Assembly: GCA_022566535.1 (NCBI GenBank)
Contig: JADFIR010000005.1
Span: 1 to 64,000 of the forward strand
DNA length: 64,000 bases
Direction of reading: 5' to 3'
Source of the DNA: Planctomycetota bacterium
Lineage (GTDB): Bacteria > Planctomycetota > Phycisphaerae > Phycisphaerales > SM1A02
Part shown: one piece after another, positions 14,313 through 45,042 of the stretch
Position numbering within the stretch: the stretch's first letter is position 1
Layout of the letters: every line of letters begins with the position of its first letter
Program-made: the position numbers and the translations under genes
The notes under the pieces: model-generated
What the model was told of the DNA's origin: nothing
Databases searched by the model: none
The model's input: only the letters and a program-made list of their open reading frames with translations

Positions 14313-14329
14313 CGAGACGCATCAGAGGT

Positions 14330-14515: not shown

Positions 14516-14659
14516 GGGCTCGTATTCCGGCGGCTGAATCAATAGCCATCTCTTCGGAAAGAACAGTCAGAGCATTCACCATGGAGCATCGCCGGCGCAA
14601 AAGGTTTGCAAGTGGGAGCGGTCGACGATTGCGAAGGCAGTCGCTAAAATCTCGGGAAT

Positions 14660-15409
14660 ATGACCCCAACCTACACGATCTTCGCCGTTGGCAAGGGCCA
14701 CATGATCTTGGTCCAGTTCTCGAATGGAGTCAACATGCTCGTGGATTGCCGGCGCTCGGGCAATTGGCCCTCTCCGCTCGCACATCTGAAGTCAAAGATT
14801 CAAACGCTGGATGTGGTGGTCATCACCCATCCGCATCAGGATCATCTCACAGGTCTCCAGGAGGTGTGCGAGTGGTACAGGCCGCGTCAAATTTGGCACA
14901 ATGGACGCTATTTCAGGCCCGATCCAGTCTATGACGACTGGAGCTACTACGAGCGTTTACGCAACGGAAAGATCTCTTTCTGTACACCGGTCCGTGTGCA
15001 GGAAGGCTACACGACCACGATCGGCGACTCACAAATCTACGTGGCAGGCCCAACTACTCCGAATCTCCAGGGTACGGCGGACGACGAGAACAACAACGGC
15101 ATCATTTTGGCAATTGCCACCAGCAACTCAAAGGTGGTGCTCACTGGTGATACAGAAATGGAACAGTGGAATGCGATCAATCTTACGCCGCTCGCGAACG
15201 CGTCAGTCTTCCTGGCCAGCCATCACGGGCGCGAGGACGGCTATTGCAAGCGGGCGCTCGACGTAATAGAGCCACAACGGATCATCATTTCGGATGGCAA
15301 ACCCGCCGCGACCGATGCGACAGCCAAGTACGATCGCGTCGCACCGGTCTCGACGACACGGAATGGCTCCGTTGTTGTCCGAGCGAGCCAAGTTGCCGCG
15401 CGAGCATAG
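14660..15409 (+). CDS. Metallo-beta-lactamase-fold hydrolase, first gene of the ubiquitin-like operon
   Basis: 249 residues of ComEC-like metallo-beta-lactamase fold. Metal ligands are visible: THPHQDH (about 55-61), the Asp of LTGDTE (about 163), and SHHGR (about 187). There are no membrane segments, so it is a soluble cytosolic hydrolase rather than a competence channel. Eighteen bases separate it from the 48-residue gene, and the next genes are E2, E1 and JAB. Metallo-beta-lactamase-fold genes have been reported beside prokaryotic E1/E2/JAB clusters (family knowledge from memory). The substrate is unknown; nuclease, peptidase or thioester hydrolase roles are all possible. Confidence 0.85.
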   Translation: MTPTYTIFAVGKGHMILVQFSNGVNMLVDCRRSGNWPSPLAHLKSKIQTLDVVVITHPHQDHLTGLQEVCEWYRPRQIWHNGRYFRPDPVYDDWSYYERLRNGKISFCTPVRVQEGYTTTIGDSQIYVAGPTTPNLQGTADDENNNGIILAIATSNSKVVLTGDTEMEQWNAINLTPLANASVFLASHHGREDGYCKRALDVIEPQRIIISDGKPAATDATAKYDRVAPVSTTRNGSVVVRASQVAARA

Positions 15410-15427
15410 GTAGATTCGGAGGCTTAC

Positions 15428-15574
15428 ATGACACATAGCTCAGAAGAGGTTCTGGTTGAACAGACGCCGGAGGAGATCATCGAGATTGATGAGGACGGCG
15501 TTGTGCATGCTGTGGGCAAGACTCCAGCCGGATTGAAGTCGACAGTGCTTCGCGATCCAGAGGGAGAGTATTGA
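15428..15574 (+). CDS. 48-residue acidic protein in the ubiquitin-like operon (candidate conjugated modifier or adaptor)
   Basis: ATG preceded by CGGAGG; its TGA overlaps the E2 start (TGATG), so translation is coupled. The protein begins MTHSSEEVLVEQTPEEII, is very acidic, contains a probable beta hairpin (IIEIDEDGVVHAV), and ends RDPEGEY. It is too short for a whole beta-grasp ubiquitin fold and has no Gly-Gly tail. In comparable operons this slot holds the ubiquitin-like protein. Its function is unknown: it might be a reduced modifier, a target peptide, or a regulator of the MBL protein. Confidence 0.75.
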   Translation: MTHSSEEVLVEQTPEEIIEIDEDGVVHAVGKTPAGLKSTVLRDPEGEY

Positions 15575-15996
15575 TGCCTGAGATTGCGGCAGATCCGGAA
15601 CTCACGCTCACGTCATCGCAGATGCAGTCGAACCGCTGGTACCATGAGCAGGAGAAGCTCAAGATGTTTCCGGCATTCGCTCTGGTTGGGGCAAATGGCC
15701 AGATCAAGGCGGCCGAGGGTGCTCTTGACACACAGTACAATAACACCTATGGCCTCCGTATCGCACTTGAGAATTATCCATACGCCCTTCCAAAGGTGTT
15801 TCCGAAGGGTTGGACCGTTGCCCCCGGGGTCCTCCACAAATTCCCGGATGGTTCTATCTGCATCATGAAGTGCGGGCAGTGGCAGCAGTATTTCACTGTG
15901 GCGCTCGTCGTTGCGAAGGCGGCGATCTGGCTCGGCAAGTACGAGATTTGGAAGCGGAACGGGCATCGGTGGCCCGGGCTCGAACAGCAGCATTAG
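15574..15996 (+). CDS. E2-like (UBC-fold) conjugating enzyme
   Basis: 140 residues. The candidate catalytic cysteine is Cys96, in HKFPDGSICIMKC. It follows an H-x-F/P segment that corresponds to the HPN region of E2 enzymes, and is followed by W and a hydrophobic helix, as in UBC folds. Cys100 is an alternative. The N-terminal half has the expected beta-sheet with ALENYPYALPKVFP resembling the YP-x(n)-P motif. It would accept a modifier from the neighbouring E1 as a thioester. The ATG overlaps the stop of the 48-residue gene, and the E1 gene starts 4 bp after its stop. Confidence 0.82.
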   Translation: MPEIAADPELTLTSSQMQSNRWYHEQEKLKMFPAFALVGANGQIKAAEGALDTQYNNTYGLRIALENYPYALPKVFPKGWTVAPGVLHKFPDGSICIMKCGQWQQYFTVALVVAKAAIWLGKYEIWKRNGHRWPGLEQQH

Positions 15997-16000
15997 GCAC

Positions 16001-16831
16001 ATGTTGCAATTCGATCGAATCCAGCACCTGCTCTCGCCGGAGCAGCTTCACGATAAGCTCGTCGTTCAAGTGGGCGTTGGCAGCGGAGGCGCTCCAGTGA
16101 ACGAGCATCTGACAATGAATGGGGTTCGACGCTGGGTGCTGTTTGATCCAGACGTCTACGATGAGATCAACCTTGTCAAGCATCCCCACGGACGAAATGC
16201 AATAGGTCATCTGAAAGTCGAGAACCAACAGAAATGGATTCTGGATCGCAACCCGAGCGCTGACGTTGAAGTTCGTGCCGAGGATGTGATGAATTCCGCT
16301 GGCTTCCGTAAGTATGCAAAGGAAGCAGATATCATTCTCTGTTGTGCGGACACTCAGCACGTTCGGTTGTTCGTGAATTCCGTTGCAGTAGAGGTTCGCC
16401 GGCCTTGTGTTACGGCGAGCGTGTTCCGTCGGGGCTTCGGAGGGGAGGTCTATGCCTACATCCCAGGCGTTTCGGGTTGTTTCGAATGCATGGCGCGTAC
16501 ATCGGAGGAAAAGGGGTGGAACATCGATGAGTCGATCGATCTGATAAAGGAAGAGAAGGACGCCATCTACGGGTTGAACCTCCGCGATTTCAAGGCATCT
16601 GGCTTGTCATTGGATATTCAGAGCATTGCCCTAATTCAGGCACGTATCGCCCTTGACATCCTCCTGACTGGCTCTGACCACGCGCTGGAACCAGTTGCGC
16701 AGAACTGGATCATCTTCTATAACAGGCAAATACCGAACAACCCAGAGACAGGCTTCCTGAAAAGCGTCAAGATAACTCTGAAACCTAAACCCGAATGCTC
16801 CTGTGCAGTCCATGAAGCAGCATCGACCTAA
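16001..16831 (+). CDS. E1-like ThiF-family adenylyltransferase
   Basis: 276 residues, single ThiF/E1 domain. The nucleotide-binding glycine loop is VQVGVGSGGAP (about 22-32), then FDPDVYDEINLVKH, equivalent to the ThiF D-x-D-x-V-x(n)-N-L box. The CFEC pair (about 159-162) and C-terminal CSC (266-268) are placed like the structural zinc ligands of the family. Known homologues adenylate the C-terminus of a beta-grasp protein and load it onto E2. It has neither a fused E2 nor a fused JAB, unlike CBASS Cap2. It overlaps the JAB gene by about 20 bp. Confidence 0.88.
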   Translation: MLQFDRIQHLLSPEQLHDKLVVQVGVGSGGAPVNEHLTMNGVRRWVLFDPDVYDEINLVKHPHGRNAIGHLKVENQQKWILDRNPSADVEVRAEDVMNSAGFRKYAKEADIILCCADTQHVRLFVNSVAVEVRRPCVTASVFRRGFGGEVYAYIPGVSGCFECMARTSEEKGWNIDESIDLIKEEKDAIYGLNLRDFKASGLSLDIQSIALIQARIALDILLTGSDHALEPVAQNWIIFYNRQIPNNPETGFLKSVKITLKPKPECSCAVHEAAST

Positions 16832-17771
16832 AACAACTAGACCGCGTGACCTAGGAATCCAAATTGCGATGGACCGCAATGTCCTTGGATATATCACCGC
16901 CGATGTAGCCAAGTCACCCGACGCTGAGGAAGGTGGCAAGTTTGTCGGATACCTACTGGGCTCACACAATACGGAGCTTCAAGCAATCGGCCTCAACCCT
17001 GAGACTCCAGCGCTCGTAGTGACTGATTACCTTCCTAGTGGCCCGAATGCCGTGCGTTCCGCCGTGGAACTGCTGCCAGATGGTGAATACCAAGAGAGGC
17101 TCTTCCGGCAGATTGAAGGACTGGATTCTGACATTGAACATCTCGGAAGCTGGCATAGTCATCATTGCAATGGACTACGGACACTGAGTGATGGTGACCT
17201 TCGCGGCTACTTCCGCACGGTCAACAAGACGGCATATCGACTGGATTGGTTTCTCGTTTCGCTGGTAACGCGCCTTCCATCTGACCCGAGCGACGCGAAT
17301 TGGATCGATCACTATGTCTTTGTACGTGGTGAACGCGAGTACCACCGCATCACCAACACTGTGAAGGTCATCGATCGGCCAACAAGGTTCGGGCAAATCA
17401 CTACCCACTCATTGAAGGTGGGACAAGGAGCCCGTCGCTCTGACGATGCAGGCACACAGGTTCAGAGCGCGACAGTAGATGCTTGGTACGAGACGGCTGA
17501 GGGGCGGAGGATTCTCGCGGAGGATCGGGATCTCTTCGCCAAACATTTCAAAGAACATGTGACGGCAACGCGGCGTGCGAGTGTCATCACACTTGCTGGT
17601 CGTATCGGACCAGTCGTCATCTCGATGATCTATCCGAGCGATGGCGGCACATCGCAGGTGGCTGTTTCTCTTCGTTGCAATGATGTAGGCATCCTGAAGA
17701 TCAGCAGTGAGCTCAAGTGGCGATGGTTGGCCATGAATGCAGCGCTTGCGGGTGCGGCTGAACTCAGGTGA
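16812..17771 (+). CDS. JAB/MPN (JAMM) metallopeptidase
   Basis: 319 residues from the ATG at 16812 (a GTG nine bases earlier is possible). The JAMM signature is complete: Glu in EEGGKFVGYLLG (about residue 39), and H-S-H followed by S-x-x-D in WHSHHCNGLRTLSDGD (about 113-129). In related systems this enzyme trims the modifier precursor or removes it from targets. The C-terminal 130 residues form a second, unrecognised domain, possibly for target or partner binding. The gene is translationally coupled to the E1 gene and followed after 4 bp by a membrane protein gene. Confidence 0.88.
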   Translation: MKQHRPKTTRPRDLGIQIAMDRNVLGYITADVAKSPDAEEGGKFVGYLLGSHNTELQAIGLNPETPALVVTDYLPSGPNAVRSAVELLPDGEYQERLFRQIEGLDSDIEHLGSWHSHHCNGLRTLSDGDLRGYFRTVNKTAYRLDWFLVSLVTRLPSDPSDANWIDHYVFVRGEREYHRITNTVKVIDRPTRFGQITTHSLKVGQGARRSDDAGTQVQSATVDAWYETAEGRRILAEDRDLFAKHFKEHVTATRRASVITLAGRIGPVVISMIYPSDGGTSQVAVSLRCNDVGILKISSELKWRWLAMNAALAGAAELR

Positions 17772-17775
17772 GGCC

Positions 17776-18291
17776 ATGAAGGAAGTCATCGAGAAACTCT
17801 CATCGTACAATCTCTTCAACTATCTCCTACCAGGGATCCTTTTCGCAGCATTCGGTGACTACATAACCGCCTACAAGATCATTCAAAAAGATCTGCTCAT
17901 CGGTCTCTTCCTCTACTACTTTGTCGGCCTCGTTATCAGTCGAATAGGATCACTCATCCTTGAACCGATCATGCGGAGAGTCCGATTCGTGACATTCGCG
18001 CCGTACACGGACTTTGTGAGGGCTTCGCAACATGATCGGAAGATCGACCTATTCTCCGAGCAGAACAATATGTACAGGACGCTATGCGCACTCTTTCTCT
18101 CGCTGGGGATGCTCAAATTCTTCGAGATCATCGCCGACAGCATCGAGGTGACACCGGAGTTCGCCACGTACATTCTCCTTGGCTTGCTGTTCCTGCTCTT
18201 AGCCGCGTCCTATCGGAAGCAGACTGGCTTCATCAAGAAGCGTGTGGAGCTAGCAAACAGCAGTGAGCACGATGCTCACGTAGGACAATAA
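17776..18291 (+). CDS. Membrane protein ending the ubiquitin-like operon (candidate effector or anchor)
   Basis: 171 residues. Hydrophobic segments: LFNYLLPGILFAAFGDYI, then LLIGLFLYYFVGLVIS, then about residues 93-112, then ATYILLGLLFLLLAASY, so about four spans. An exposed middle segment (60-95) and a polar, charged tail separate or follow them. ATG starts 4 bp after the JAB stop, with GAGG at a short distance, which ties it to the operon. I do not recognise the family. Such a terminal membrane protein could be a membrane-damaging effector, a target of conjugation, or an anchor for the machinery. Confidence 0.7.
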   Translation: MKEVIEKLSSYNLFNYLLPGILFAAFGDYITAYKIIQKDLLIGLFLYYFVGLVISRIGSLILEPIMRRVRFVTFAPYTDFVRASQHDRKIDLFSEQNNMYRTLCALFLSLGMLKFFEIIADSIEVTPEFATYILLGLLFLLLAASYRKQTGFIKKRVELANSSEHDAHVGQ

Positions 18292-18656: not shown

Positions 18657-19148
18657 CTAATCGCTGGGTTTGAATAGCGCGCCAGACGCCCACTCATGGT
18701 AGGTGTCTTCGTAGTCGCTGAGCCAGCTAACTCGTCCGGCCGTCACATCCCACACAGCGATCGCGTTCATGGTGACCGATGAAACTACCCCACCGAAGAG
18801 GTTGGTGCCCGACACCGCGGGTCCGATCTTTCCCAGGACCCTTACCTTGTGGTCCTTGACCACTGGGATCTTCGTATTGGGATAGACCACAATCAAAGAC
18901 GGCCCTCCGAACTGAGTGGAGTCGTCGTAGGTGATCATCTGGAAGACGAGCTTGCCACGTTCTTCGGCGGCTCGAATGACGCGGCCCCGAAACGCGTACA
19001 ACTCGCTCGTGTATCGCGCGGGATTCCGCTCGATTTGGTTGAGTGTTTCCACCGAGGATGTTCGGTATCTCGCGGTGTAGCTCGCGGTGCAGCCACAGAG
19101 CGCGAGGCCGATGGCGAGGATCGACGTCTGTCGGATCAGCATTGGCAT
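18657..19148 (-). CDS. Small lipoprotein, unknown function
   Basis: 163 residues from an ATG that follows AAAAGGAGG. A short basic start, a hydrophobic stretch and a lipobox (GLALCGC) predict a lipid-anchored envelope protein. The rest is beta-rich, with segments such as YAFRGRVIRAAEERGKLVFQ and VRVLGKIGPAVSG reminiscent of OB-fold-like lipoproteins. No transmembrane segment follows. It lies alone between the third miniature element and an XRE gene, on the opposite strand, and may be resident rather than a defence gene. Confidence 0.7.
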   Translation of the reverse strand: MPMLIRQTSILAIGLALCGCTASYTARYRTSSVETLNQIERNPARYTSELYAFRGRVIRAAEERGKLVFQMITYDDSTQFGGPSLIVVYPNTKIPVVKDHKVRVLGKIGPAVSGTNLFGGVVSSVTMNAIAVWDVTAGRVSWLSDYEDTYHEWASGALFKPSD

Positions 19149-19261
19149 GGCAGCCTCCTTTTCAGCGTGGGGTGGAGCCCAGAGGGAACGGTCAATCGTC
19201 CCCACGGGCTGACCGATTCAGGATCAGGGCCGGCCGGTGGGGCGGAACGCCGCTGCACTGT

Positions 19262-19288
19262 GCCTTGACACGCAACACGTGTCAAGGC
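19262..19288. promoter_or_regulatory. Operator-like perfect inverted repeat upstream of XRE gene
   Basis: GCCTTGACACG-CAACA-CGTGTCAAGGC: 11-bp perfect arms, 5-bp spacer, 22 bp before the XRE start. The half-site TTGACACG also resembles a -35 box. A related shorter dyad stands upstream of the neighbouring RAMA nuclease (20816-20836). Confidence 0.65.
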
Positions 19289-19310: not shown

Positions 19311-19556
19311 ATGCCGCGCAAGGCACAGCATGCCCGCGACTATCGCTCCGTCCCGGCCTTTCTCCGCCAACTGCGAGAGAAGGCCGGGTTGACCCAGCGC
19401 GAGCTTGGCGAGCGGCTGGGACAGCCCCAGTCATGGGTGTACAACTGCGAGACCGGCAACCGGCGCGTGGATGTGGCGGAGTTCGCACGGTGGTGCGAGG
19501 CATGCGAGACCACCCCGGCGGCTGGTTTCGGGCGCTGGCTGAAGCACCGACGGTGA
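19311..19556 (+). CDS. XRE-family HTH regulator
   Basis: 81 residues with a central helix-turn-helix, AGLTQRELGERLGQPQSWV, followed by a conserved CETGNRRVDVAEFARWCEA segment. It is homologous to the 79-residue protein at 24526-24765 (shared LTQREL, ETGNRR and WC-AC). Each lies beside a RAMA-domain nuclease, so it may act like a controller protein of a restriction system. The dyad in front of its own gene, found again before the nuclease gene, supports autoregulation plus nuclease control (inference). Confidence 0.8.
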   Translation: MPRKAQHARDYRSVPAFLRQLREKAGLTQRELGERLGQPQSWVYNCETGNRRVDVAEFARWCEACETTPAAGFGRWLKHRR

Positions 19557-19674
19557 TAGCGCGATCCCAGCCCGTGGCCACGGCTTGACGACCGGGAGAG
19601 ACTCAGCGGTAGCGTTGGGGTTCAGAACGGCGTCGACTGCCACCTCAGTTTGCGCAGGGCGGCCGGGCCGTCAC

Positions 19675-20769
19675 CTACCGGCCTTGCTGCTTACGGCGCT
19701 GGTGATACTCATCCCTCGCATCATCGAGGGATCGCTCATCGCCGCTTTTGCCGACGAACCGCCAGAACCGCCATCCATTGGTGCTGGCGCGGCGGCCGAG
19801 AATGACTGATCGGGCTTCGGCAGCCGCCGTCGACGGACTGTCGTACCGCGTCCCCCGGAACTCAATCGTGCCGTCGCGGTGCAGGGCCGCTTCGAGGCGC
19901 TGACCCTTGTACTCGCGGAAGAGTGGAAGCGGAGCAGGCAAGATGCCGGCTTTGATGAGTTGAAGCAGCGTTACCGCCGGATGTGCCCGCGTGCCTGGGC
20001 GCTGCTCTGCGGATTCTCCCCGCCCCGTCCGGTGTTCCGGTGCGGTTGACGCGATTTCCCCGATCGTCGCCAGCGCGTTCTCGTTGAGCAGGTGGTGAAC
20101 GGCGTCGATGACATCGTCGATGGAGACCGCCACGCCCGTGCTCCGACGCAGTTGGCGCCAGAGCGCCTTCATTAATGACTCGCTGAAGATCGCCTGGAGT
20201 ACGGTGCCGCTGTCGAGCACCTCGCGTTTCTGCCACAGCTTGTCCAGCACACCCTTCTTGACGCTGCGGTAGGAGATGAGCTCGAACCGTTCGAGGAGCA
20301 TCTCGACGTCGTCCTCAAGGAGGTCCCATTCGAAGAGCCGCTTGGTCACCGGCGGTTGGCCGAACGCAACGTGGTAGAGGCGCCATTGGCGGCCGTTGGT
20401 GAGGATGATCCACTCGCAGCCGGTGTTGATGGCGTAGGACGAGACCTGCTTGAGGTGTTTGCGAGCCAGGTCAATTCCAACCCGCTTGAGCTCCACGAGG
20501 ATGGTGGGGCGGCTGTGCTCCTGGGCATCGATCCGGATCGCGAAATCGACGTGTTCGGTCTCGCCCGCCCCTCGGATCGCATGTTCGCGTGTGAGGTGCT
20601 CGAAGGGGTCGTAGCCCAGGACGCTCTCGAAGATGCGTTCCACGCGGCGGCGGGTCTCCGCTTCGTTGCCGTCCATCTTCGCCAGCTGCTGGATCACGCC
20701 GCGGGCCTCGATCACGGCGCGTTGGCGATCCCGATCTCGGCTCGAAGCGTTCGATCTCTTCTTGGCCAT
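19675..20769 (-). CDS. HsdR_N-like nuclease with C-terminal RAMA (modified-DNA reader) domain
   Basis: 364 residues. The N-terminal domain resembles the type I restriction R-subunit nuclease: Asp in VDFAIRID (75) and E-x-K in LVELKRV (93-95), then QVSSYAINTGCEWIILTNG. A linker leads to a C-terminal domain of about 75 residues, AGILPAPLPLFREYKGQ to NGWRFWRFV, matching RAMA domains, predicted readers of modified DNA. There is no helicase, so it is not an HsdR subunit. A modification-dependent nuclease is the likeliest role. It is convergent with the XRE gene, with a dyad 49 bp upstream of its ATG. Confidence 0.8.
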   Translation of the reverse strand: MAKKRSNASSRDRDRQRAVIEARGVIQQLAKMDGNEAETRRRVERIFESVLGYDPFEHLTREHAIRGAGETEHVDFAIRIDAQEHSRPTILVELKRVGIDLARKHLKQVSSYAINTGCEWIILTNGRQWRLYHVAFGQPPVTKRLFEWDLLEDDVEMLLERFELISYRSVKKGVLDKLWQKREVLDSGTVLQAIFSESLMKALWRQLRRSTGVAVSIDDVIDAVHHLLNENALATIGEIASTAPEHRTGRGESAEQRPGTRAHPAVTLLQLIKAGILPAPLPLFREYKGQRLEAALHRDGTIEFRGTRYDSPSTAAAEARSVILGRRASTNGWRFWRFVGKSGDERSLDDARDEYHQRRKQQGR

Positions 20770-20815
20770 GCGTTGTCCCCTCGCCGGAGATCCGGCAGAG
20801 AACCACCAGTCTCGC

Positions 20816-20836
20816 CCGACACGGAAACCGTGTCAA
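20816..20836. promoter_or_regulatory. Dyad upstream of the HsdR_N-RAMA gene
   Basis: GACACGG-AAA-CCGTGTC followed by AAG, reproducing the TTGACACG/CGTGTCAA half-sites of 19262-19288. It could let the XRE protein control the nuclease. Confidence 0.5.
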
Positions 20837-20899
20837 GACGGAGTTGTCGAGCTCATGGCGTGGCGCACGGCATACGGGGTGAAGAGGGCTTGCGACGGA

Positions 20900-20998
20900 A
20901 GCTGTGAGTGTAGGGCAGCACTGCCGCGGGCGCCTGGGTGGACTGTTGAACTACTACCACCGCAGGGCCGCCTGATATGCTCGGGCGAATTATGAAAC
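20900..20998 (+). mobile_element. Insertion-sequence 3' end, copy A (truncated)
   Basis: The + strand encodes the last residues of a transposase ([10 protein letters not shown] then stop), followed by TCGGGCGAATTATGAAAC, whose final 12 bp recur at the end of the next copy (21344-21355). It is the tail of an rve-type IS, broken on the left. Confidence 0.6.
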
Positions 20999-21355
20999 CA
21001 TACGCGAAAGACTTCCGCGAGCTCTTGGAGAAGGCAGACGTAAAGCCGCTGCGGTTGCCGCCACGGAGCCCTAACCTGAACGCCTACGCCGAGCGTTTCG
21101 TGCTCTCGATCAAATCGGAGTGTCTCGATCGACTACTCATCCTCGGCGAGCGTCATCTTCGCCACGTGATCGACGAGTACGTGGAGCACTATCACACTGA
21201 GCGGAATCACCAGGGATTGGGCAATCGGCTCATCAGCCCGCAGGCAGCCAAATCAAGGAGCGCCGATGGGCCGGTCTACAGCCGCCAGCGGCTCGGCGGC
21301 ATGTTGAACTTCTACTATCAGAGGGCAGCATGAACGGTCGGCCGAATTATGAAAC
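20999..21355 (+). mobile_element. Insertion-sequence 3' part, copy B: transposase integrase-core C-terminus
   Basis: Encodes about 110 residues of an rve/integrase-core transposase: [20 protein letters not shown], the last catalytic Glu in [11 protein letters not shown], then [16 protein letters not shown], ending NFYYQRAA and stop at 21333, and the IS end GAATTATGAAAC (21344-21355). The N-terminal half is absent. Copies A and B lie in tandem. The IS end interrupts a methylase gene on the other strand (21347-21481). Confidence 0.8.
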
Positions 21356-21481
21356 ACGACGCGGTCGTCGAGCGAACCATTTGTGGACGCCAATGACTGG
21401 GCGATAGTCCTGCTGAATCTGCTTCTCTTCGGATGTGAGCTTCGCCACGAGCCCGATGTCGAATGTGTCTTCAATGCTCAC
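21347..21481 (-). pseudogene. DNA methylase N-terminal fragment, cut by the IS
   Basis: GTG start overlapping the stop of the HTH gene (GTGA). The 44-residue frame begins MSIEDTFDIGLVAKLTSEEK and includes YRPVIGVHKWFARRP, the characteristic opening of large DNA methylases found in defence islands. It ends in a stop created inside the IS terminal repeat, just after FARRP. The remaining gene, normally several hundred codons, is gone. Confidence 0.7.
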
Positions 21482-21690
21482 GCCTCGCCGTCCTTGTCTT
21501 CCGAGAGCTGTCGCAGCAAGTCTTCAAGCTCAGCCTTCCTGTCGAGTCGGTACCCGTTTACCGGATGACGCCTTGCTCTGAGCTTCCCCTCCTGGTCCCA
21601 GTTGCGGAGCGTCGATGCCGACACGCCCAGGAACTCCGCTGCCTCGCTCAGGTTCGGTGATTGTGGTGGCAGAGGGAGCGGCTCTAGTGA
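21478..21690 (-). CDS. MerR/excisionase-type HTH protein, partial or with unusual start
   Basis: The open frame reads NLSEAAEFLGVSASTLRNWD, then RRHPVNGYRLDRKAELEDLL, a classic MerR-like helix-turn-helix plus wing. The frame is closed upstream by TAA and contains no ATG, GTG or TTG before the domain, so it uses CTG or has lost its start. Its stop overlaps the methylase fragment start, so the two once formed an operon. HTH-methylase pairs of this type belong to restriction-like modules (family knowledge); this one is broken. Confidence 0.65.
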   Translation of the reverse strand, partial: SLEPLPLPPQSPNLSEAAEFLGVSASTLRNWDQEGKLRARRHPVNGYRLDRKAELEDLLRQLSEDKDGEA

Positions 21691-21903
21691 TTAGCCTTTC
21701 TCCTTGGGACGTTGTGCCGCGCCCCTACTGAAGCGCAGTACATCTGGTTGCTCTACGAGGCGAGCACGCCCGTCTTGTTCGCTTCTCTGGATAACAACCG
21801 GAGGCTCCACGAGCGAGGGACGATCGCCTGTCGATACCGGCGCTTGGCCCTGCGACTGAGTGGGGCCGGTGTTGTTGGAGTCACTACTTGGATTCTGAGG
21901 CAT
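21691..21903 (-). CDS. Small hypothetical protein
   Basis: 70 residues from an ATG that overlaps the last 20 bp of the upstream membrane protein gene. It is polar and low in complexity (PSSDSNNTGPTQSQG, then RPSLVEPPVV), resembling the tail of that membrane protein (ERPTLVEPTDYV). It may be an in-frame relic of a duplicated tail rather than a functional gene. Confidence 0.35.
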   Translation of the reverse strand: MPQNPSSDSNNTGPTQSQGQAPVSTGDRPSLVEPPVVIQRSEQDGRARLVEQPDVLRFSRGAAQRPKEKG

Positions 21904-22729
21904 TGCCCGAGGCTCCTGCTTGGCTAGAATCGCCGATGTCATGCTGCACGCCAGAGACTTGACCTGCTTGAGGAAGCCCACCTGTTAAGTCCGATTGGAC
22001 ATAGTCGGTCGGTTCGACAAGCGTGGGCCGCTCAGCGGACGGCGGTGGAGGACTATCCGGTGATTGGGACGGTTGCTCTTTTTCTACTGCCATGAGACGG
22101 GCTTCCTGATTGGAGTCATGACCACGATGCTCTACTAGAACATTGCCGATGATGGCGTACGAAATGAAGATCGCGCCGAACAAGAAGCCTGCGAACGTCG
22201 TCCAGTTGAGACCGATCGCCCAATGCGCTCGGCGCTTCTGAATGGCTCTGTCGTCATTGATCGCCTTGGCGAGATTCTCACTGAGATCCTTGTAGACCTC
22301 TTCCGGCCGCAGGCAACCAACCGTGCTGCTTCGGATCGACTTCTCTAGCTCATTGACCCCGACAACGGGCGTGTTCCGGATGTGATGACACATGACGCCG
22401 CAGACAAACGCCGCCACCAGACTCAGTGCGGCGAGGGATGCAAACACAATTAGCACAACAAGGTGCGTGGAGCTTGTGTCCTTGATCGCCCACGAGATCT
22501 GAGTCACGGCATAGGACATGCTCGCGATGATGACCATTACTACGGTCATCAGGAATCGAGCCTTCTGGAGGTAGATCGGATAAGCAGCCTCGTCGAAATC
22601 ACGAACTGCTTGAAGATGCTCATGCACGATGCGGCATGAGGCGACAGATTCCTCTTTCGAGATCTGTCTGGCGCGAGTCGGGTCGGCGAGCTCGTCAGTG
22701 CTTGGTGTCTCGGGGCGGGTTGGGGTCAT
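21884..22729 (-). CDS. Membrane protein with paired transmembrane helices, unknown function
   Basis: 281 residues from an internal ATG (the longer frame overlaps the upstream gene). Hydrophobic segments: FLMTVVMVIIASMSYAV and VVLIVFASLAALSLVAAF, then, after a charged loop of about 65 residues, FAGFLFGAIFISYAIIG. The tail of about 75 residues is Pro/Ser/Gln-rich and disordered. The two first helices plus a long helical stretch recall SLATT-like membrane proteins, but that is only a resemblance. It overlaps the DUF2188 gene by 35 bp, suggesting one transcript. Confidence 0.65.
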   Translation of the reverse strand: MTPTRPETPSTDELADPTRARQISKEESVASCRIVHEHLQAVRDFDEAAYPIYLQKARFLMTVVMVIIASMSYAVTQISWAIKDTSSTHLVVLIVFASLAALSLVAAFVCGVMCHHIRNTPVVGVNELEKSIRSSTVGCLRPEEVYKDLSENLAKAINDDRAIQKRRAHWAIGLNWTTFAGFLFGAIFISYAIIGNVLVEHRGHDSNQEARLMAVEKEQPSQSPDSPPPPSAERPTLVEPTDYVQSDLTGGLPQAGQVSGVQHDIGDSSQAGASGNASESK

Positions 22730-22928
22730 TGCCGTAGCTGTCCGAATCGCGAATCCGGCCATCTCGTCGGTGGATGACCAGTTCAGTCCGGTTCTTGGAG
22801 GCAAGGTCCTTTCCTGCCTCGATGGCTGACTTCTGGGTGGGGTGCCGGGAGGATACTCGCTGAGCTCCCTCTCGTTTCACCGCCCACTCTGTGCCCTCGG
22901 GGACCACATGGTAATCTCGCTTAGCCAT
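22695..22928 (-). CDS. DUF2188 domain protein
   Basis: 77 residues. The start KRDYHVVPEGTEWAVKREGA and the ending HRRDGRIRDSDSYGNDPNPP are typical of DUF2188, a small family of unknown role often encoded on mobile DNA. The ATG is preceded by AGGAG at suitable distance. It overlaps the following membrane protein gene. Confidence 0.8.
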   Translation of the reverse strand: MAKRDYHVVPEGTEWAVKREGAQRVSSRHPTQKSAIEAGKDLASKNRTELVIHRRDGRIRDSDSYGNDPNPPRDTKH

Positions 22929-23043
22929 AGCCTGGCTCCTGGATAATCGGTTCTTGTACGGGTATGCTACCCGTCGTGGGTGCTGAGGTCAAGACCCACT
23001 AGTTCTGGCACAAATGCCGCACCAACGGCGAAAGGGCCAAACG

Positions 23044-23244
23044 ATGCAACTCCCTGACGTAGCCAATGTTGCGATGGACCGTGAGAGGAACATCCGCTTC
23101 GTCGTGACGGCCTACCGCCGCCTCTCGCGGCAAGAGCTGCTCGCGGCAGTCCGTACGTTCTTCTCGATGAAGGGTGCCCCCCGGCCGAAGCCGAACTCGA
23201 CATACGAAATCATCACCGTGATCGGTGCCCGGGAGTCGGTCTGA
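23044..23244 (+). CDS. Small hypothetical protein
   Basis: 66 residues from the ATG at 23044; a start 30 bp earlier is also open. It contains a helical segment, LSRQELLAAVRTFFSMKG, and a C-terminal strand, STYEIITVIGA. No family recognised. It is divergent from the DUF2188 gene and followed by methylase debris. Confidence 0.45.
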   Translation: MQLPDVANVAMDRERNIRFVVTAYRRLSRQELLAAVRTFFSMKGAPRPKPNSTYEIITVIGARESV

Positions 23245-23310
23245 GCGAACATTCGGCGGGCCTTGCCGGCGCAAACAGCCGTGTGTGCCAGTCCGTCCTC
23301 CCGTGACTGC

Positions 23311-23498
23311 AAGCCAGCGCGTCGGGCCAGAAAGAGCATGTGGCTGGCCACCAGATGGGCCAAGTGCTCGGCGTGCTCCACTCCCACCGTGTGATTCGCC
23401 GCGCGTTCCTCATGGAGATCGACTCGGCCTACTGCGATGTGATCGTGCACCGCTGGGAGGAGTTCACCGGCCGGAAGGCGGAGCGGGCGAGCCGATGA
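23311..23498 (+). pseudogene. DNA methylase C-terminal fragment
   Basis: The + frame ends MEIDSAYCDVIVHRWEEFTG followed by RKAERASR and a stop. This is the usual C-terminus of N4/N6 DNA methylases; compare GLEIDPHFVDVVVRRY in the intact enzyme at 28181-29497. The catalytic part is missing and the upstream frame has no recognisable methylase motif. Confidence 0.6.
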
Positions 23499-23542
23499 TG
23501 AATACACAACACGCTGCGAACTCGACAGCACACGACCGACCG

Positions 23543-24328
23543 CTACAGACCGTGTTTCGGTTTCCCTTCGACGGAGGTCAGCGCAACGCCGGAGGGCGGC
23601 AGTTCGACCAGACCGAGCAAGAGCCATTCTATCGCGGCAGCTTCGTACGTCTCAATTGGCAATTCGATCGGCACGTCCGTCGCATGGGCGCGCACATGCT
23701 CAGTAAACGCGCTAGCTATGGTCGGATTGCCTTTGACCACGTGTGCCGACCACGACAGTACCGCCAGGTACGACAGAAGGTCACAAGCCGGTGCTGCATC
23801 AGAGCAGCGTGCATCCGGGAGGAGCGATTCGATGCGGGCTCTGGTCTCCTCGATCTGTCGCTTCAGCCATCTGTGAGCAAATACCCAGCTCCAGATGATC
23901 GCGTGGTCAACAATGACAAAGAGCCGTGGATTCCAGAAGTGAAGGAACTTCGAGATGGCCACAACGGAGGGCGCATATTTCATGGGCTTGATGTCGGATA
24001 TGGATTCGATGATCTGCCAGCAATCCGCGAGATCGTCGTCATTCATTTCCGACAATCGAAGGTTGCGCAACCGTTCGTTCTGCGACCGCAGGTGGTCAAA
24101 TATCCGTTTCGGCTCCCAAGGCGCGCCGATCGCACCACGGAACACGTGCCAGTGGTTCTTGAGCTGGAAGTAGAGCCATTTAAAGTCTGCGGGCGAGTTC
24201 TCGTCAAACGCGGTCTTAGACCGAACCCAGCATTCGATGTGGTACGGGATGCCCCAACCCTTGGTCGCGGCGTAGACGTCGCCATGCATGCGAAACGCAT
24301 CTTGGATCGTGGCCTGCGGCAGTTGCAT
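23543..24328 (-). CDS. Hypothetical protein, 261 residues
   Basis: A soluble, helix-rich protein with many aromatic residues. Notable stretch: SVVAISKFLHFWNPRLFVIV followed by DH (about residues 120-143), which has the look of a conserved core and is followed by a Trp-rich helix (IIWSWVFAHRWLKRQ). I do not recognise the family and see no catalytic signature. It stands alone among methylase debris and the second XRE/RAMA pair; a passenger or defence role is possible. Confidence 0.6.
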   Translation of the reverse strand: MQLPQATIQDAFRMHGDVYAATKGWGIPYHIECWVRSKTAFDENSPADFKWLYFQLKNHWHVFRGAIGAPWEPKRIFDHLRSQNERLRNLRLSEMNDDDLADCWQIIESISDIKPMKYAPSVVAISKFLHFWNPRLFVIVDHAIIWSWVFAHRWLKRQIEETRARIESLLPDARCSDAAPACDLLSYLAVLSWSAHVVKGNPTIASAFTEHVRAHATDVPIELPIETYEAAAIEWLLLGLVELPPSGVALTSVEGKPKHGL

Positions 24329-24525
24329 GAGGGCGATTGTAACGGTGCGAGCCCGTCATCGGCGGCCGAAGAGAAAGCCTCGGCTACGGCCGAGGCGGTG
24401 AAGGGGGAAGCGAAATGATGCGGCTACACAGCCGGGCGCTGAGCTGCCGATCCGGCTTATTGCCATCGAACGCTGCTGCAGCACCGAGCAGCGTAATGGA
24501 GTCGGTCATCGCCGGCACGAGTGGC

Positions 24526-24765
24526 CTACTTGCCAGCTACTCGCCTGATTGCTTCCGATGGATCGAAGCCGCAAGCTTTGCACCAGCGGACCATTTCAAC
24601 CGGATCGATCCGCCGGTTGCCCGTTTCCGTCTTGTATACGAACGAGTGGGGACGCTTCAGTTTGCGAGCCAGCTCTCGCTGGGTGAGATCGGCCTGCAAA
24701 CGCCACTCTCGAAGCAGCTTACACAGCCTCCGGTATGCGGGGTCATGCTGCGCCTTTGTGCCCAT
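24526..24765 (-). CDS. XRE-family HTH regulator, paralogue of the 19311 gene
   Basis: 79 residues with HTH core ADLTQRELARKLKRPHSFV, then TETGNRRIDPVEMVRWCKAC. It shares the ETGNRR-x-D and WC-AC segments with the XRE protein at 19311-19556. It is divergent from the GIY-YIG-RAMA nuclease gene, with dyads between them. Likely a repressor or controller of that nuclease (inference from layout). Confidence 0.8.
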   Translation of the reverse strand: MGTKAQHDPAYRRLCKLLREWRLQADLTQRELARKLKRPHSFVYKTETGNRRIDPVEMVRWCKACGFDPSEAIRRVAGK

Positions 24766-24766
24766 C

Positions 24767-24813
24767 CTGGGCGCACGCTAGACTGCCCGAAGGATGCGCC
24801 CAGTTGGGGCGCA
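24767..24813. promoter_or_regulatory. Inverted repeat between XRE and GIY-YIG-RAMA genes
   Basis: CTGGGCGCA (24767-24775) and TGCGCCCAG (24795-24803) form perfect 9-bp arms, and a third half-site, TGGGGCGCA, follows at 24805-24813. It starts 2 bp from the XRE ATG, in the divergent promoter region, as expected of an autoregulatory operator. Confidence 0.5.
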
Positions 24814-24896
24814 GTCTGAGGAACGGAGCGATCCCTGATTCTGGGTCCACGGCGATCGTGCTGCGGACCTGAGAAGCGTTCAACGGAGCCCAGACC

Positions 24897-25607
24897 GTGA
24901 ATAATGGTGCCCACTTGGTTTGCCAGCATCTGGAGAACATCTCGGCGAAGGTGCTGGAGGACTACCAGGGGATCATTCGAGAATACATCCGGGGCAGGCA
25001 CGGCATCTATGCGCTGTACAAGAAGGACAAGCTGTACTACGTCGGCCTGGCGAGCAACCTTCGGGTGCGCCTGAAGCACCATCTGAAGGATCGACACAAG
25101 GGCCTGTGGGATCGTTTCAGTGTGTACCTGGTCATCGACGACGGTCACATCAAGGAGCTCGAGTCACTGGTGCTGCGGATCGTCAGGCCGACGGGGAACC
25201 GCCTGATCGGGCGCTTCCAGCGATCGGAGAATCTGGGCAAGAGACTGACTCAAGACATCCGCAGACACCACCGCAAGGAGCTTCAGTTGCTGGTCGGTCG
25301 CAAGGCGAAGCCCAGCAGCCGCAAGAAAAGCACACGGCAAGGCCAGCCATCGGCCCAAGGTGGTCGATCAAAGGCGATTCTGGCCGCATACATTGAGGGC
25401 CCACTGAAACTGCGCGCCAACCACAAGGGAAGGACGGCTCGAGCGACGGTGCACCGAGATGGATGGATCAGCTACGAGGGGGATCTGTACAGGTCGCCAT
25501 CAGCCGCGGCGCAGGCCGTCGTGGGACGAAGCTGCAACGGCTGGAGTTTCTGGTCGTACGAGAGGGCGCCTGGTGACTGGACGCGCTTGCAGGAGTTGAG
25601 GCGATAG
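24897..25607 (+). CDS. GIY-YIG nuclease fused to a RAMA (modified-DNA reader) domain
   Basis: 236 residues from a GTG start. The GIY-YIG core is HGIYALYKKDKLYYVGLA (about 36-54), with the conserved Arg in LRVRLKHH and the metal-binding Glu in IKELESLVLR. A basic linker (about 135-165) leads to a C-terminal RAMA-type domain, LRANHKGRTARATVHRDG to NGWSFWSYE. The same reader is fused to an HsdR_N nuclease at 19675-20769. A nuclease plus modified-base reader suggests cleavage of modified foreign DNA. It is divergent from an XRE regulator. Confidence 0.82.
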   Translation: MNNGAHLVCQHLENISAKVLEDYQGIIREYIRGRHGIYALYKKDKLYYVGLASNLRVRLKHHLKDRHKGLWDRFSVYLVIDDGHIKELESLVLRIVRPTGNRLIGRFQRSENLGKRLTQDIRRHHRKELQLLVGRKAKPSSRKKSTRQGQPSAQGGRSKAILAAYIEGPLKLRANHKGRTARATVHRDGWISYEGDLYRSPSAAAQAVVGRSCNGWSFWSYERAPGDWTRLQELRR

Positions 25608-25831: not shown

Positions 25832-27496
25832 TTAGGGATTCAGGAACGATCCATTCCAAGGCCGCCAGTGCTCCCGGCGTGATCGCATGTTGAGCGTGGT
25901 CACGAGCGGAATGGAGCGAAGCTGTCGTTTGCCTCCTCGATGACTGACCATGTAGGCCATCTGCAGGGCGTCCGGCCCGTCGTCATACGCACCGAGTGGG
26001 AACTGCCGCAGTTGATCCAGGAGATCCGTCTGACGTCGTGAGAAACGAATCCGACCGCCCCGAACCGCCGGCTGCAACGCCTCAATCCGCCCCTGCTTGT
26101 TGCTGTGAGGCGTCAGTTCCGTGACCCGAAGAGGCATACCTCGGGCCAATGCTCTTTTCCTCAGCTCACTGGCCAAGAACGCTTGATACTGCACCGATTC
26201 CATTCCGAACAGGCGGTAGCGGTACAGTTTGTGATGTTCGATGATGGCATCGATGATCTCATCGGGCTTGCGGCGGCGGATGTCGGCCGCTACCACGTAT
26301 CGGATCGGGCTCCCGCGGGGCACAAACAATGTGATGATCGCGGAATAGTCACCGCGTGGACCCTTGTTGCCCATGCTCGGATCGCAGGCGCCATAGAACG
26401 AGCCCCCGCGGTCGATTGCAGCGTTGAGCTCATCGACAGATGGGAACTCATCGTCCCAGAAGACCAAGTCACTCTCCTGGAACATGCAGTCTGCCGGATC
26501 GACCGGTTCATTCTGCTTTTCGGAATCGAAGCTCCGCCTTCCCTCGCGCAGCCGCGTTTCCATGAGCCGATAGTAGCTGTCTCTTTCGGGCCAAAGAACA
26601 TCGGTGCCTTCCAGGAGCTGTTGGCGCTGGTCATTGAAAAACGCGAGCGCGGCATCCTGGCCGCTGCGGCCGTCGAACTCTTCCAAGTCGTTGTAGATCC
26701 GTTCCCACCGGTACCACAGCTCCGGTTGGTCCGACCAGGATAGAATGGCCTTGTACTTGCGCCTGATCCACGCCGGCGATTTCTGACGGTCAGTCAGTTC
26801 GGCCAGCAGCGAGCCGAAGTGAAGGATCGTGCCGACCACCACCACGTTGGTGACGGCGCTACCGGCCTTGAGCACGGCCTTGTCGAACCAGTCGCGGAGG
26901 TATGCCCGCTGGTCGGCCGAGCGTACTTGCGACTCATTTTCCACGTCATCGACGACGATCAGCGTGGGCCGATGCTGGCGGTGCCGACGTCCACGGATCT
27001 TCTGGTCGGCCCCGAACGCGGCGACCTTCACATCGTTGCGAGTGATGATGTCTGCCTTTCTCCACCGAGGCGCGCGCGGCTTGGCGCCGGGAACCTCGCA
27101 TGCTTCGGGGAAATCCTCGAGAAGAAGGGCATTGGCCTCCAGCTCGTGCTTGATATGGGCCAGGAGCTCCATGGCCTGCTCGGCCGTGTCCGAGATCAAG
27201 AAGATGCAGGGCTCCTTGGCGTAGCAAATACACCAGAGGCAGTAGCCGAGGGTTACCAGCGTGCTCTTGGCGTGTTCACGGGGCGCCGCGATCGCTATCC
27301 GCTGGCCTCGCTTCCGCACGGTGCCCTCGAGCAGCTCGAAGAGCTCGAGATGCATCCGCGACGCCGGCAGTTGGAAATAGGCCGGCAGATAGGTTTCGGC
27401 GAAGACGCGTAGGCAGTGTTCCGCGGCATCCCGACGCGCCTGGGAAAGCAGCCGTCGGGCCGCCGCGCGATAGGAGTGATCATGGCTGTTGTTCAT
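25832..27496 (-). CDS. terL: Phage terminase large subunit
   Basis: 554 residues from the ATG with AAAAGGAG before it. The ATPase domain has an atypical Walker A, APREHAKST, typical of terminases, Walker B TLIVVDDVENE, and later the nuclease-domain Asp in GACDPSMGNKGPRGDYSA. TerL cuts and pumps phage DNA into proheads. It overlaps the preceding gene by 17 bp. No portal, capsid or tail gene follows, so this packaging module is an isolated remnant or belongs to an unusual satellite or gene-transfer element. Confidence 0.88.
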   Translation of the reverse strand: MNNSHDHSYRAAARRLLSQARRDAAEHCLRVFAETYLPAYFQLPASRMHLELFELLEGTVRKRGQRIAIAAPREHAKSTLVTLGYCLWCICYAKEPCIFLISDTAEQAMELLAHIKHELEANALLLEDFPEACEVPGAKPRAPRWRKADIITRNDVKVAAFGADQKIRGRRHRQHRPTLIVVDDVENESQVRSADQRAYLRDWFDKAVLKAGSAVTNVVVVGTILHFGSLLAELTDRQKSPAWIRRKYKAILSWSDQPELWYRWERIYNDLEEFDGRSGQDAALAFFNDQRQQLLEGTDVLWPERDSYYRLMETRLREGRRSFDSEKQNEPVDPADCMFQESDLVFWDDEFPSVDELNAAIDRGGSFYGACDPSMGNKGPRGDYSAIITLFVPRGSPIRYVVAADIRRRKPDEIIDAIIEHHKLYRYRLFGMESVQYQAFLASELRKRALARGMPLRVTELTPHSNKQGRIEALQPAVRGGRIRFSRRQTDLLDQLRQFPLGAYDDGPDALQMAYMVSHRGGKRQLRSIPLVTTLNMRSRREHWRPWNGSFLNP

Positions 27497-28184
27497 CGAT
27501 GGGCTCCTTTTCAATCAGTTTCGTCAGATTCTGAACTTTCTCGCCGAGCTCGAGACGCGAAAACGTTGCACGGAGTTGGGTGACCTGTTGTTTGGTCGAG
27601 TCGTCGCCTGGTTGGCTGCGCTGGACGATGACCGCCAAGCGGTCGAGCTCGCCCTGCAGTTCATCGAAGCCCGGCGGGTCACCGAGACGGTGGGTGACAT
27701 CGCCGTGGATCTCGTGGGGGGCAGTCGGCAGGCATCCGAGTTGCTGCAGGGACTGGACGAGCTCCCGCTTGATGGTCCAGCACGCTCGCTCGCCTTCGAT
27801 CTTGGCGATCGGCGAGGTGTCCTTGTTGCGGATGACCCGGCGGATGTGGGAGCGGGCAAGCTCTGCTTCCATCACCAGCTGGCCAATCATCTCCGCGGTG
27901 AACGCGGGATCGGCTTCGACGGCATTCGCCTCGCGGATGGCCCGACGATCGCGGCTGACGGTTCGTTCGATGGTCCTCAAGATCTCAGCGATCTCGGCCG
28001 TGCTGAATCCTTCCCCGGTCAGATGCTCCACACACCGACGACGATCCTCAATGGAGAGGGACTTCGGCGGGATCTGACCGCTTTGAATCCCGCGGATCAA
28101 AGACAAGACGGAATGCCCGGTCGAGGTCGACTCAGCTTCGGAGTTAGCATTCTCGGCCGCTGTGTTTTTCTCGGGATGTTTCAT
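27480..28184 (-). CDS. HTH protein, candidate terminase small subunit
   Basis: 234 residues. The N-terminal part is acidic and low in complexity, followed by a helix-turn-helix-like stretch, FSTAEIAEILRTIERTVSRD, and a long helical C-terminal part. It is encoded between a ParB-methylase and TerL, with ATGA overlap upstream and overlap downstream, the position of a small terminase. The sequence itself does not prove this, so DNA-binding regulator remains an alternative. Confidence 0.6.
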   Translation of the reverse strand: MKHPEKNTAAENANSEAESTSTGHSVLSLIRGIQSGQIPPKSLSIEDRRRCVEHLTGEGFSTAEIAEILRTIERTVSRDRRAIREANAVEADPAFTAEMIGQLVMEAELARSHIRRVIRNKDTSPIAKIEGERACWTIKRELVQSLQQLGCLPTAPHEIHGDVTHRLGDPPGFDELQGELDRLAVIVQRSQPGDDSTKQQVTQLRATFSRLELGEKVQNLTKLIEKEPIDEQQP

Positions 28185-29497
28185 GGAATCTGCTCGGTAT
28201 TGGTGTGGAGATCAGTGCAGTGCGTGGCATAGCGTTGGGCAAGTTGCGGATCGACGGCGTCAGCGCCGACGAACGCGATGTAGCGGCGAACGACGACGTC
28301 GACGAAGTGCGGATCGATTTCGAGGCCGTAGCACCGGCGACCTGTCCGTTCGCATGCAATCAGCGTGCTGCCGCTGCCAAGAAACGGATCAAGGACCAAG
28401 TTGCCCGGTCGTGTCGAGTCGCGGATGCCGCGCTCCGACAGAAGCAGAGGCTTCTGGGTCGGATGGAGGTAGCTGGACGTTGGGTCGCGCTTGACCTCCC
28501 AGACGGTTGTTTCGTTCGTCGGTCCGTACCAGAAGTGACCGCCTTTGTCGTCCTTAGGCAGCCAGCCGTAGAGGCAGAATTCGCTTTGCTCGTTGAAATC
28601 ACCAAACCCGATGGCGAAGCTCGGTTTGACCCATGTGAGGACGCAGCTGACGTGGAAGCCTAGTGCTTCCAACATGAAGTGCATCGGGCCGAAGTTGCGA
28701 TGGCCGTTCCACAGGTAGAACGGAGCTCCGGGAAGAAGATGGTCTTTGATGTCGGTGAGAATCCGCCGAAGCCAATCGGTATACTCACGGTGACTTAAGT
28801 TGTCGGCATAGATGCGCCGCCACTCACGCGATCGTTTGGGCCGCGCCTTGCTCGGATTGGGTCTATTGCCGCCAAGGTATGCCACGTTGTAAGGCGGATC
28901 ACCGAGCAGAAGATGCACCTTCTCGTGTTGGAGCAGGCGCTGAACGTCTCTGGGATTCGCCGAATCGCCGCAGAGCACCCGGTGGCGGCCAAGCTCGATC
29001 AGTTCACCTCGCTTTGTTACTGGCGGGTGATCCGTGTCTACTGCCGCTTCGGGATTGAAGCTCTCCTCCTTGTCTTCCAGATCCGTGTGCAGTGCTTCGG
29101 CGATGATCGCCGCAATGTCAGGCAAATCGATGCCCGTTCTCGTTGCATCAAAGTCGGGCAACTTCACGAGCTCATCAAGTAGCGCGCCGAGTTTCTGCAT
29201 GTCCCAACGGCCCGATATTTGATTGAGCGCGACGGCGAGAGCGCGCTCGTTCGCCTCATCGAGGTCAACAAGAACGACATCGACCTCAAGTTCCCCGAGC
29301 GCGCGCAGCACATGAAGGCGTTGGTGGCCGCCAATCAGTCGGTTGTTGCGCCGATTGACGACCAATGGCTCCACGAGGCCGTAGTCGGTAATGGAGCGCT
29401 TTAGTTTCTCGTAGGCCGGATCACCGGGTCCCAGGTCCTGGCGGGGGTTGTAGAGGGCTGGGCTGATCTTCGAAATCGAAATGCGGCGGACTTGCAT
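28181..29497 (-). CDS. ParB-like nuclease domain fused to N4/N6 DNA methyltransferase
   Basis: 438 residues. The N-terminal 100 residues are ParB-like: YNPRQDLG, the GGHQRLHVLRAL box and VVLVDLDEANERAL. The methylase has DPPY in LLLGDPPYNVAYLGG (about 207) and the SAM-binding motif DPFLGSGSTLIACE near residue 370, order beta-type. Known relatives are phage- and mobile-element-borne solitary methylases placed upstream of terminase genes. The ATG follows GAGGAG. Its stop overlaps the start of the next gene. Confidence 0.88.
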   Translation of the reverse strand: MQVRRISISKISPALYNPRQDLGPGDPAYEKLKRSITDYGLVEPLVVNRRNNRLIGGHQRLHVLRALGELEVDVVLVDLDEANERALAVALNQISGRWDMQKLGALLDELVKLPDFDATRTGIDLPDIAAIIAEALHTDLEDKEESFNPEAAVDTDHPPVTKRGELIELGRHRVLCGDSANPRDVQRLLQHEKVHLLLGDPPYNVAYLGGNRPNPSKARPKRSREWRRIYADNLSHREYTDWLRRILTDIKDHLLPGAPFYLWNGHRNFGPMHFMLEALGFHVSCVLTWVKPSFAIGFGDFNEQSEFCLYGWLPKDDKGGHFWYGPTNETTVWEVKRDPTSSYLHPTQKPLLLSERGIRDSTRPGNLVLDPFLGSGSTLIACERTGRRCYGLEIDPHFVDVVVRRYIAFVGADAVDPQLAQRYATHCTDLHTNTEQIP

Positions 29498-44940: not shown

Positions 44941-45042
44941 ACTTGGGCTTGATCCGGGCGCATTGAGTTGAGTCAGATAAGACGCCGCGTGCTTTGCGCC
45001 GCCGGTGCGGCGTGGGGCGCGGATCTCGATTGGAGGTTGATC

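Follow-up and report, generated by a model that had tools for sequence, protein, structure and literature searches.

Two RAMA-nuclease genes, each paired with a small XRE regulator and its own candidate operator, in a planctomycete genome

A 64,000-nt stretch of a Planctomycetota genome (contig JADFIR010000005.1, positions 1 to 64,000; called the window below) contains two nuclease genes whose products carry a RAMA domain, and each lies next to a gene for a small XRE-family regulator. The nuclease of module 1, P0001, combines RAMA with an HsdR_N domain and adjoins XRE1; that of module 2, P0002, combines RAMA with a GIY-YIG domain and adjoins XRE2. A preliminary description, made from the letters of the window, had proposed that the two pairs represent one class of modification-dependent restriction module with exchangeable nucleases. 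The locus raises the question of whether regulator and nuclease belong together, and whether the pairs descend from one module. Nucleases without a protecting methyltransferase require some other safety, and their regulation has been little studied. The explanation that we find probable is that two stand-alone nuclease genes of restriction type were assembled independently within one defence-like region, each under its own small XRE repressor. The link between XRE and nuclease is better supported than a sequence-only description could know, and a general class and a dependence on modification are not established.

Each regulator can be connected to its nuclease through a palindrome with a 5-nt spacer. 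Exact copies of operator 1, GACACG-N5-CGTGTC, occur in the window only at positions 19267–19283 and 20818–20834, and the entire genome (G000; 3.36 Mb) has three, one each preceding XRE1, P0001 and a second XRE1 copy on contig C37. In the genome of a sister organism (G001) the sequence is found only at the two corresponding places of module 1, and a reversed control pattern has 0 occurrences in both genomes. When the P0001 promoter is compared with that of G001, the arms of operator 1b are kept while 2 of the 5 spacer bases differ and the sequence upstream is non-homologous. Operator 2, TGCGCCC-N5-GGGCGCA, occurs once each in our genome, in G001 and in a third genome, G046, always at an XRE gene, and not in genomes G225 or G402. 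G046 also has the array of two sites, 2a and 2b, at a spacing identical to that in the window, yet it gave no GIY-YIG-RAMA match.

The same type of palindrome is common in the XRE family. From 30 XRE matches we built a profile, and in 32 family genes we examined the 120 nt preceding the conserved region for palindromes with a 5-nt spacer and arms of at least 6 nt. Such a palindrome precedes 17 of the 32 genes, whereas 100 resamplings, which preserve nearest-neighbour composition on average only, averaged 1.5 genes and never exceeded 5. Recognition-helix similarity tracks half-site similarity (Mantel r = 0.53, n = 17; 0 of 5000 permutations as high). Operator 1 also accompanies the XRE of genome G182, a protein 51% identical to XRE1, and the two share the helix end YNCE together with TGACACG; the XRE of G046 and XRE2 have VYK and TGCGCCC in common. 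From these data we strongly infer that each XRE binds its operator. Since the operators are nearly unique in the genome and are kept in G001, and since helix and operator co-vary across the family, each XRE very probably controls itself plus its nuclease.

The genes themselves are as first described. The open reading frames for HsdR_N-RAMA at 19675 and GIY-YIG-RAMA at 24897 are in place, and all four domains score above the Pfam cut-offs. In P0001, residues 36–134 match HSDR_N_2 (E = 1.7e-11) and residues 251–360 match RAMA, PF18755 (E = 9.5e-20, 71 bits versus a cut-off of 35.2). In P0002, residues 35–69 match GIY-YIG (E = 8.5e-6) and residues 142–235 match RAMA (E = 1.8e-12, 47.6 bits versus 35.2), with a weak additional match to DUF4357. 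Invariant residues are D75, E93 and K95 among 8 alignment rows for P0001, and G36, Y38, Y48, R58, H62, E89 and N101 among 41 rows for P0002; we take them to have the catalytic roles usual in these families. The same predicted reader is indeed present in both nucleases (40% identity over 81 columns), and in P0002 the fold agrees too. The P0002 model, built from 41 rows with a predicted local distance difference test score (pLDDT) of 83.8, superposes at residues 161–236 on RAMA as found in MPND (Z = 10.2, root-mean-square deviation 1.5, 70 residues) and CcrM (Z = 9.8, 2.1, 72 residues), and its residues 16–105 match UvrC GIY-YIG domains (Z = 5.8). A single-sequence prediction of P0001, made with no alignment, had a pLDDT of 44 and was unusable, and sequence searches of solved structures gave weak matches only. 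The regulators, of 81 and 79 amino acids (aa), are homologous as proposed, with HTH_31/HTH_3 matches and 49% identity over 75 residues. Module 1 is convergent, with the stops of XRE1 and P0001 118 bp apart, and module 2 is divergent, with starts 131 bp apart.

All four genes are intact in G001, with identities of 94% for P0001, 93% for P0002, 91% for XRE1 and 99% for XRE2. The ratios of non-synonymous to synonymous substitution (dN/dS) against G001 are 0.29, 0.64, 0.36 and 0.06, respectively, and the module genes have therefore been kept, XRE2 most strictly. In G001 the modules lie ∼2 kb apart in an arrangement that differs from the window. The second copy of module 1 in our genome, on C37, is interrupted by the contig end. 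Partial matches to P0001 occur in 10 plasmid records (HsdR_N half) and matches to P0002 in 2 (RAMA part). Viral contigs showed no relative of P0001 when P0001 or the sequence of locus L079 was the query, and two when an alignment (A3) was used.

Coordinates of the two modules, their candidate operators and an adjacent gene in the window
Feature	Coordinates	Strand	Description	Evidence
Predicted lipoprotein gene	18657..19205	-	Divergent to XRE1; operator 1a between the two genes	No Pfam match
Operator 1a	19267..19283	.	GACACG-N5-CGTGTC, 27 bp before XRE1	12-bp perfect arms TGCCTTGACACG; kept in G001 and C37
XRE1	19311..19556	+	81-aa HTH_31 regulator, module 1	Pfam HTH_31, E 1.8e-15
P0001	19675..20769	-	HsdR_N-RAMA nuclease, 364 aa	Pfam domains; D75, E93, K95 invariant
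Operator 1b	20818..20834	.	GACACG-N5-CGTGTC, 48 bp before P0001 start	Arms kept in G001
XRE2	24526..24765	-	79-aa HTH_31 regulator, module 2	Pfam HTH_31, E 2.1e-11
Operator 2a	24757..24775	.	One-mismatch partner of operator 2b, covers XRE2 start codon	
Operator 2b	24795..24813	.	TGCGCCC-N5-GGGCGCA, 29 bp before XRE2, 83 bp before P0002	Kept in G001
P0002	24897..25607	+	GIY-YIG-RAMA nuclease, 236 aa, GTG start	Pfam domains, invariant residues, fold

In the mechanism that we propose, a dimer of XRE1 would occupy operator 1 before its own gene and before P0001, and a dimer of XRE2 would occupy operator 2 in the region between XRE2 and P0002. Binding would limit transcription, so that nuclease expression would be low and self-limiting. 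The nuclease would dock on double-stranded DNA via RAMA, and the DNA would then be cut by the PD-(D/E)XK domain of P0001 or the GIY-YIG domain of P0002. By analogy, the effect of the XRE proteins is inferred to be repression; TTGACA is present within both module-1 operators, as might be expected if a −35 box were being blocked. The target is presumed to be foreign DNA, and Mrr-type and ThiF neighbours suggest a defence region. Several points weigh against this account. A promoter scan of both modules found no consensus promoter, and for that reason repression, as opposed to activation, rests on analogy. The roles of XRE1, XRE2, P0001 and P0002 are all predicted. At the threshold used, 15 of the 32 XRE-family genes have no such palindrome, and relatives of XRE1 in genomes G012 and G054 lack operator 1 at their own genes, with matches to it elsewhere in those genomes. 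The Mantel test, moreover, did not control for relatedness.

If the two modules were examples of one class, the association should recur. We examined the best 80 of 112 GIY-YIG-RAMA loci (L098–L177; from named genomes, with flanks up to 4 kb), 39 Planctomycetota GIY-YIG-RAMA loci other than our own (1.5-kb flanks, some loci being pieces of one gene) and 56 loci of P0001 relatives, in 54 of which the HsdR_N part was present. An XRE-family gene is divergently adjacent in 2 of the 80 loci, namely G001 and a Planctomycetota metagenome-assembled genome (L149, the G402 pair), the latter with a third operator type, ATATCCC-N5-GGGATAT. The G402 pair is also the single case among the 39 loci. Among the 54 HsdR_N loci one has a strong XRE-family neighbour (L074), and its protein is without RAMA. 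Weak matches to the XRE model in four more of the 80 loci (E = 2.5e-3 to 1.4e-7, 0.9–1.9 kb downstream) and in HsdR_N loci L087 and L097 were not counted. Consequently the association that a search of genome neighbours was expected to reveal is rare, and as a general rule it was rejected. Beyond this genus one XRE/GIY-YIG-RAMA pair was found, and HsdR_N-RAMA with this XRE family was seen in this genus only. RAMA is fused to the nuclease in 6 loci of P0001 relatives and occupies a separate frame in one further locus; the nine closest relatives, 49–57% identical, are all without it.

Phylogeny gave a similar picture. XRE1 and XRE2 fall in two different well-supported clades, each of which includes members beside other genes, and the nuclease-neighbour label requires 4 changes on the XRE tree, 3 of these being forced by well-supported branches. 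In the RAMA tree the GIY-YIG and HsdR_N domains form separate groups (89/89), in which the HsdR_N rows include locus L093, where no HsdR_N part was found. The RAMA of P0001 clusters with two others from P0001-type matches (98/95), and the HsdR_N-RAMA of locus L092 adjoins the GIY-YIG group. A recent swap of RAMA between the two nucleases is not supported, given the separate groups on a moderately supported branch. With the XRE proteins in separate groups and the RAMA domains likewise, one regulator family seems to have been captured repeatedly, rather than a module class inherited, and each pairing seems to have been put together on its own. The preliminary interpretation is supported in part: the operators tie each XRE to its nuclease and RAMA is real in both, but the XRE association is rare and the clades are separate, and the reading as one class with exchangeable nucleases is weak.

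A different neighbour is commoner. Restriction–modification (R–M) genes lie in the flanks of 32 of the 80 GIY-YIG-RAMA loci, within 100 bp at 18 of them, and 38 of the 39 R–M genes counted share the strand of the nuclease. A Pfam scan of 19 neighbours identified 13 R–M genes (HsdM, HsdR, HsdS, Type ISP, Eco57I-type and Type III) and confirmed the orders hsdM-hsdS-GIY, seen for example at L114, and HsdR-GIY; an adenine methyltransferase is often included. Control loci gave 0/20 and 2/57. Because these controls came from Planctomycetota, unmatched to the 80 global genomes, and because the Planctomycetota GIY-YIG-RAMA loci too show an R–M gene at only 2 of 39 (with the shorter flanks), we give more weight to the strand bias. 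GIY-YIG-RAMA might on these grounds be an accessory nuclease of R–M operons, the window copy being an orphan that exchanged its R–M partner for an XRE. We consider this unlikely: 48 of the 80 loci show no R–M gene in the available flanks, the Planctomycetota loci hardly ever do, and HsdR_N-RAMA is left unexplained. The R–M setting of many GIY-YIG-RAMA genes nevertheless offers a concrete route to what RAMA reads.

What RAMA contributes separates two further explanations. Both nucleases could be true Type IV enzymes, in which RAMA reads a phage base modification and licenses the nuclease. We give this reading somewhat less than an even chance. The predicted reader is fused to the nuclease, and no methyltransferase gene lies inside either module, according to the window open reading frames and Pfam; the nearest is a prophage-like ParB-methyltransferase at 28181–29497. 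A Type IV role was proposed for GIY-YIG-RAMA as a possibility for future study (PMC11037411), CMoRE, another single-protein GIY-YIG enzyme, is Type IV (PMC12923530), RAMA has been treated as a modified-base reader (PMC12839542), and DUF4357 has been noted both alongside GIY-YIG and in the GmrSD proteins of Type IV systems (PMC4619093). Against it, RAMA–DNA contacts are sequence-independent in the MPND and CcrM structures, and N6-methyladenine (6mA) did not affect binding by the MPND RAMA, contrary to an earlier pull-down cited there (PMC9963953). In addition, a plain 6mA-dependent cutter would endanger a host with an adenine methyltransferase, as often encoded near the R–M-linked loci. RAMA thus probably provides DNA binding, and cutting that depends on DNA modification stays no firmer than plausible because the published structures show no base-specific contacts. 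Match rows in our genome number 8 for N6_N4_Mtase and 3 for N6_Mtase, one of them in the prophage-like block; this does not decide what RAMA reads. Alternatively, RAMA could simply hold DNA, cutting could ignore modification, and safety could lie wholly in XRE control that is lifted on infection. The fold matches to MPND and CcrM, with their reportedly non-base-specific contacts (PMC9963953), and the dedicated repressor in each module fit this idea, but 78 of the 80 GIY-YIG-RAMA genes have no such XRE and would need another safeguard, and we regard it as doubtful.

Two other explanations concern the regulators. Small XRE proteins are often antitoxins, and each pair could be a toxin–antitoxin system in which the XRE, besides its regulatory role, inactivates the nuclease through direct contact; XRE1 is weakly similar to TIGR03070. 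The score is 30.8 bits versus a curated cut-off of 71.65, however, the gene pairs are convergent or divergent and not co-directional, and related nucleases occur without an XRE, all of which makes this improbable. That the XRE proteins are unrelated regulators of mobile elements placed by chance is more improbable still. The XRE family often lies beside other genes, and a prophage-like terminase and ParB-methyltransferase are nearby, but the sole exact copy of operator 1 in our genome that does not precede an XRE1 gene lies 48 bp before P0001 and is kept in G001. One such other neighbour is a small membrane protein, the sole partner family sought beside the XRE family, which adjoins the XRE gene in 6 of 30 loci (L025, L027, L036, L044, L047 and L048); these neighbours begin with NFGLLIAYVLPGF-like sequence.

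Returning to separately assembled nucleases under their own XRE repressors, we tentatively suggest a wider interpretation. The diversified tiny XRE repressors and their 5-nt-spaced operators may form mutually orthogonal expression locks that defence genes acquire repeatedly, with RAMA nucleases captured at least three times (XRE1/HsdR_N-RAMA, XRE2/GIY-YIG-RAMA and the G402 pair), while unlocked GIY-YIG-RAMA relatives would travel in R–M operons as a back-up cutter against phages that defeat the R–M system of the host. If this is true, two orthogonally locked restriction nucleases can coexist side by side in one genome. Here the sequence reveals the regulator, its operators and part of a recognition code, from which predictions for binding assays and promoter swaps follow directly.

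The surroundings of the modules contain other genes. A predicted lipoprotein gene, so judged from the N-terminus of its product, lies divergent to XRE1, with operator 1a in between, in each of the three copies of module 1 that were seen (the window copy; L016, 9415–9957; L017, 6549–7097); whether it is part of module 1 is uncertain. Upstream, at 11514–18291, a 932-aa Mrr_cat-TPR protein is followed by a metallo-beta-lactamase and a protein of 141 aa; next come an E1-like protein of the ThiF family and two proteins with no Pfam match. We take the set to resemble a ubiquitin-like conjugation defence operon. An integrase-core (rve) transposase piece lies between the modules (20977–21333). Module 2 is followed at 25832–29497 by the terminase large subunit and the ParB-DNA methyltransferase of the prophage-like block, and the G001 modules, too, have a similar pair after them. 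In G001 a 351-aa Mrr_cat restriction-endonuclease-like gene adjoins XRE2 (L016, 5816–6871). Further along the window, positions 44968–51522 encode a 2184-aa RHS-repeat protein.

We compared the modules with known systems. In the open-access literature searched no XRE-controlled RAMA nuclease is described, which does not prove absence in print. P0002 has the same two domains as the GIY-YIG-RAMA fusions of PMC11037411 and matches models of the PADLOC candidate PDC-S14, which overlaps the GAO_29 system (PMC10855318); the best PDC-S14 model matched P0002 with E = 3.2e-19 over the RAMA part only, and another with E = 2.1e-11 over two stretches. Unlike the window module, these systems are presented with no XRE or operator in the accessible sections. 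The RAMA fold at residues 161–236 of P0002 resembles that of MPND and CcrM, where it sits in an MPN-domain protein or a methyltransferase rather than in a nuclease. Like CMoRE (PD-T4-3), P0002 consists of an N-terminal GIY-YIG nuclease and a C-terminal domain, with a weak fold match (Z = 3.2) whose range excludes the C-terminal domain of CMoRE. The GIYxY-YIG motif of CMoRE (PMC12923530) differs from P0002, which has GIYALY, with L40 invariant in 41 rows. Residues about 10–250 of P0001 are 49–57% identical to stand-alone proteins annotated as 'type I restriction enzyme HsdR N-terminal domain-containing protein', but the nine closest of these end in a basic tail instead of RAMA. As for the regulators, XRE1 and XRE2 resemble the C proteins, e.g. 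C.Kpn2I, and RptR, which are small HTH regulators of restriction genes (PMC6237814, PMC12255303). Unlike the C proteins, they have no methyltransferase partner in their modules, and XRE1 matches the PADLOC C-protein models weakly (E = 0.003). The C proteins and RptR bind sites before their own promoters, and XRE1 and XRE2 likewise have candidate sites before their own genes.

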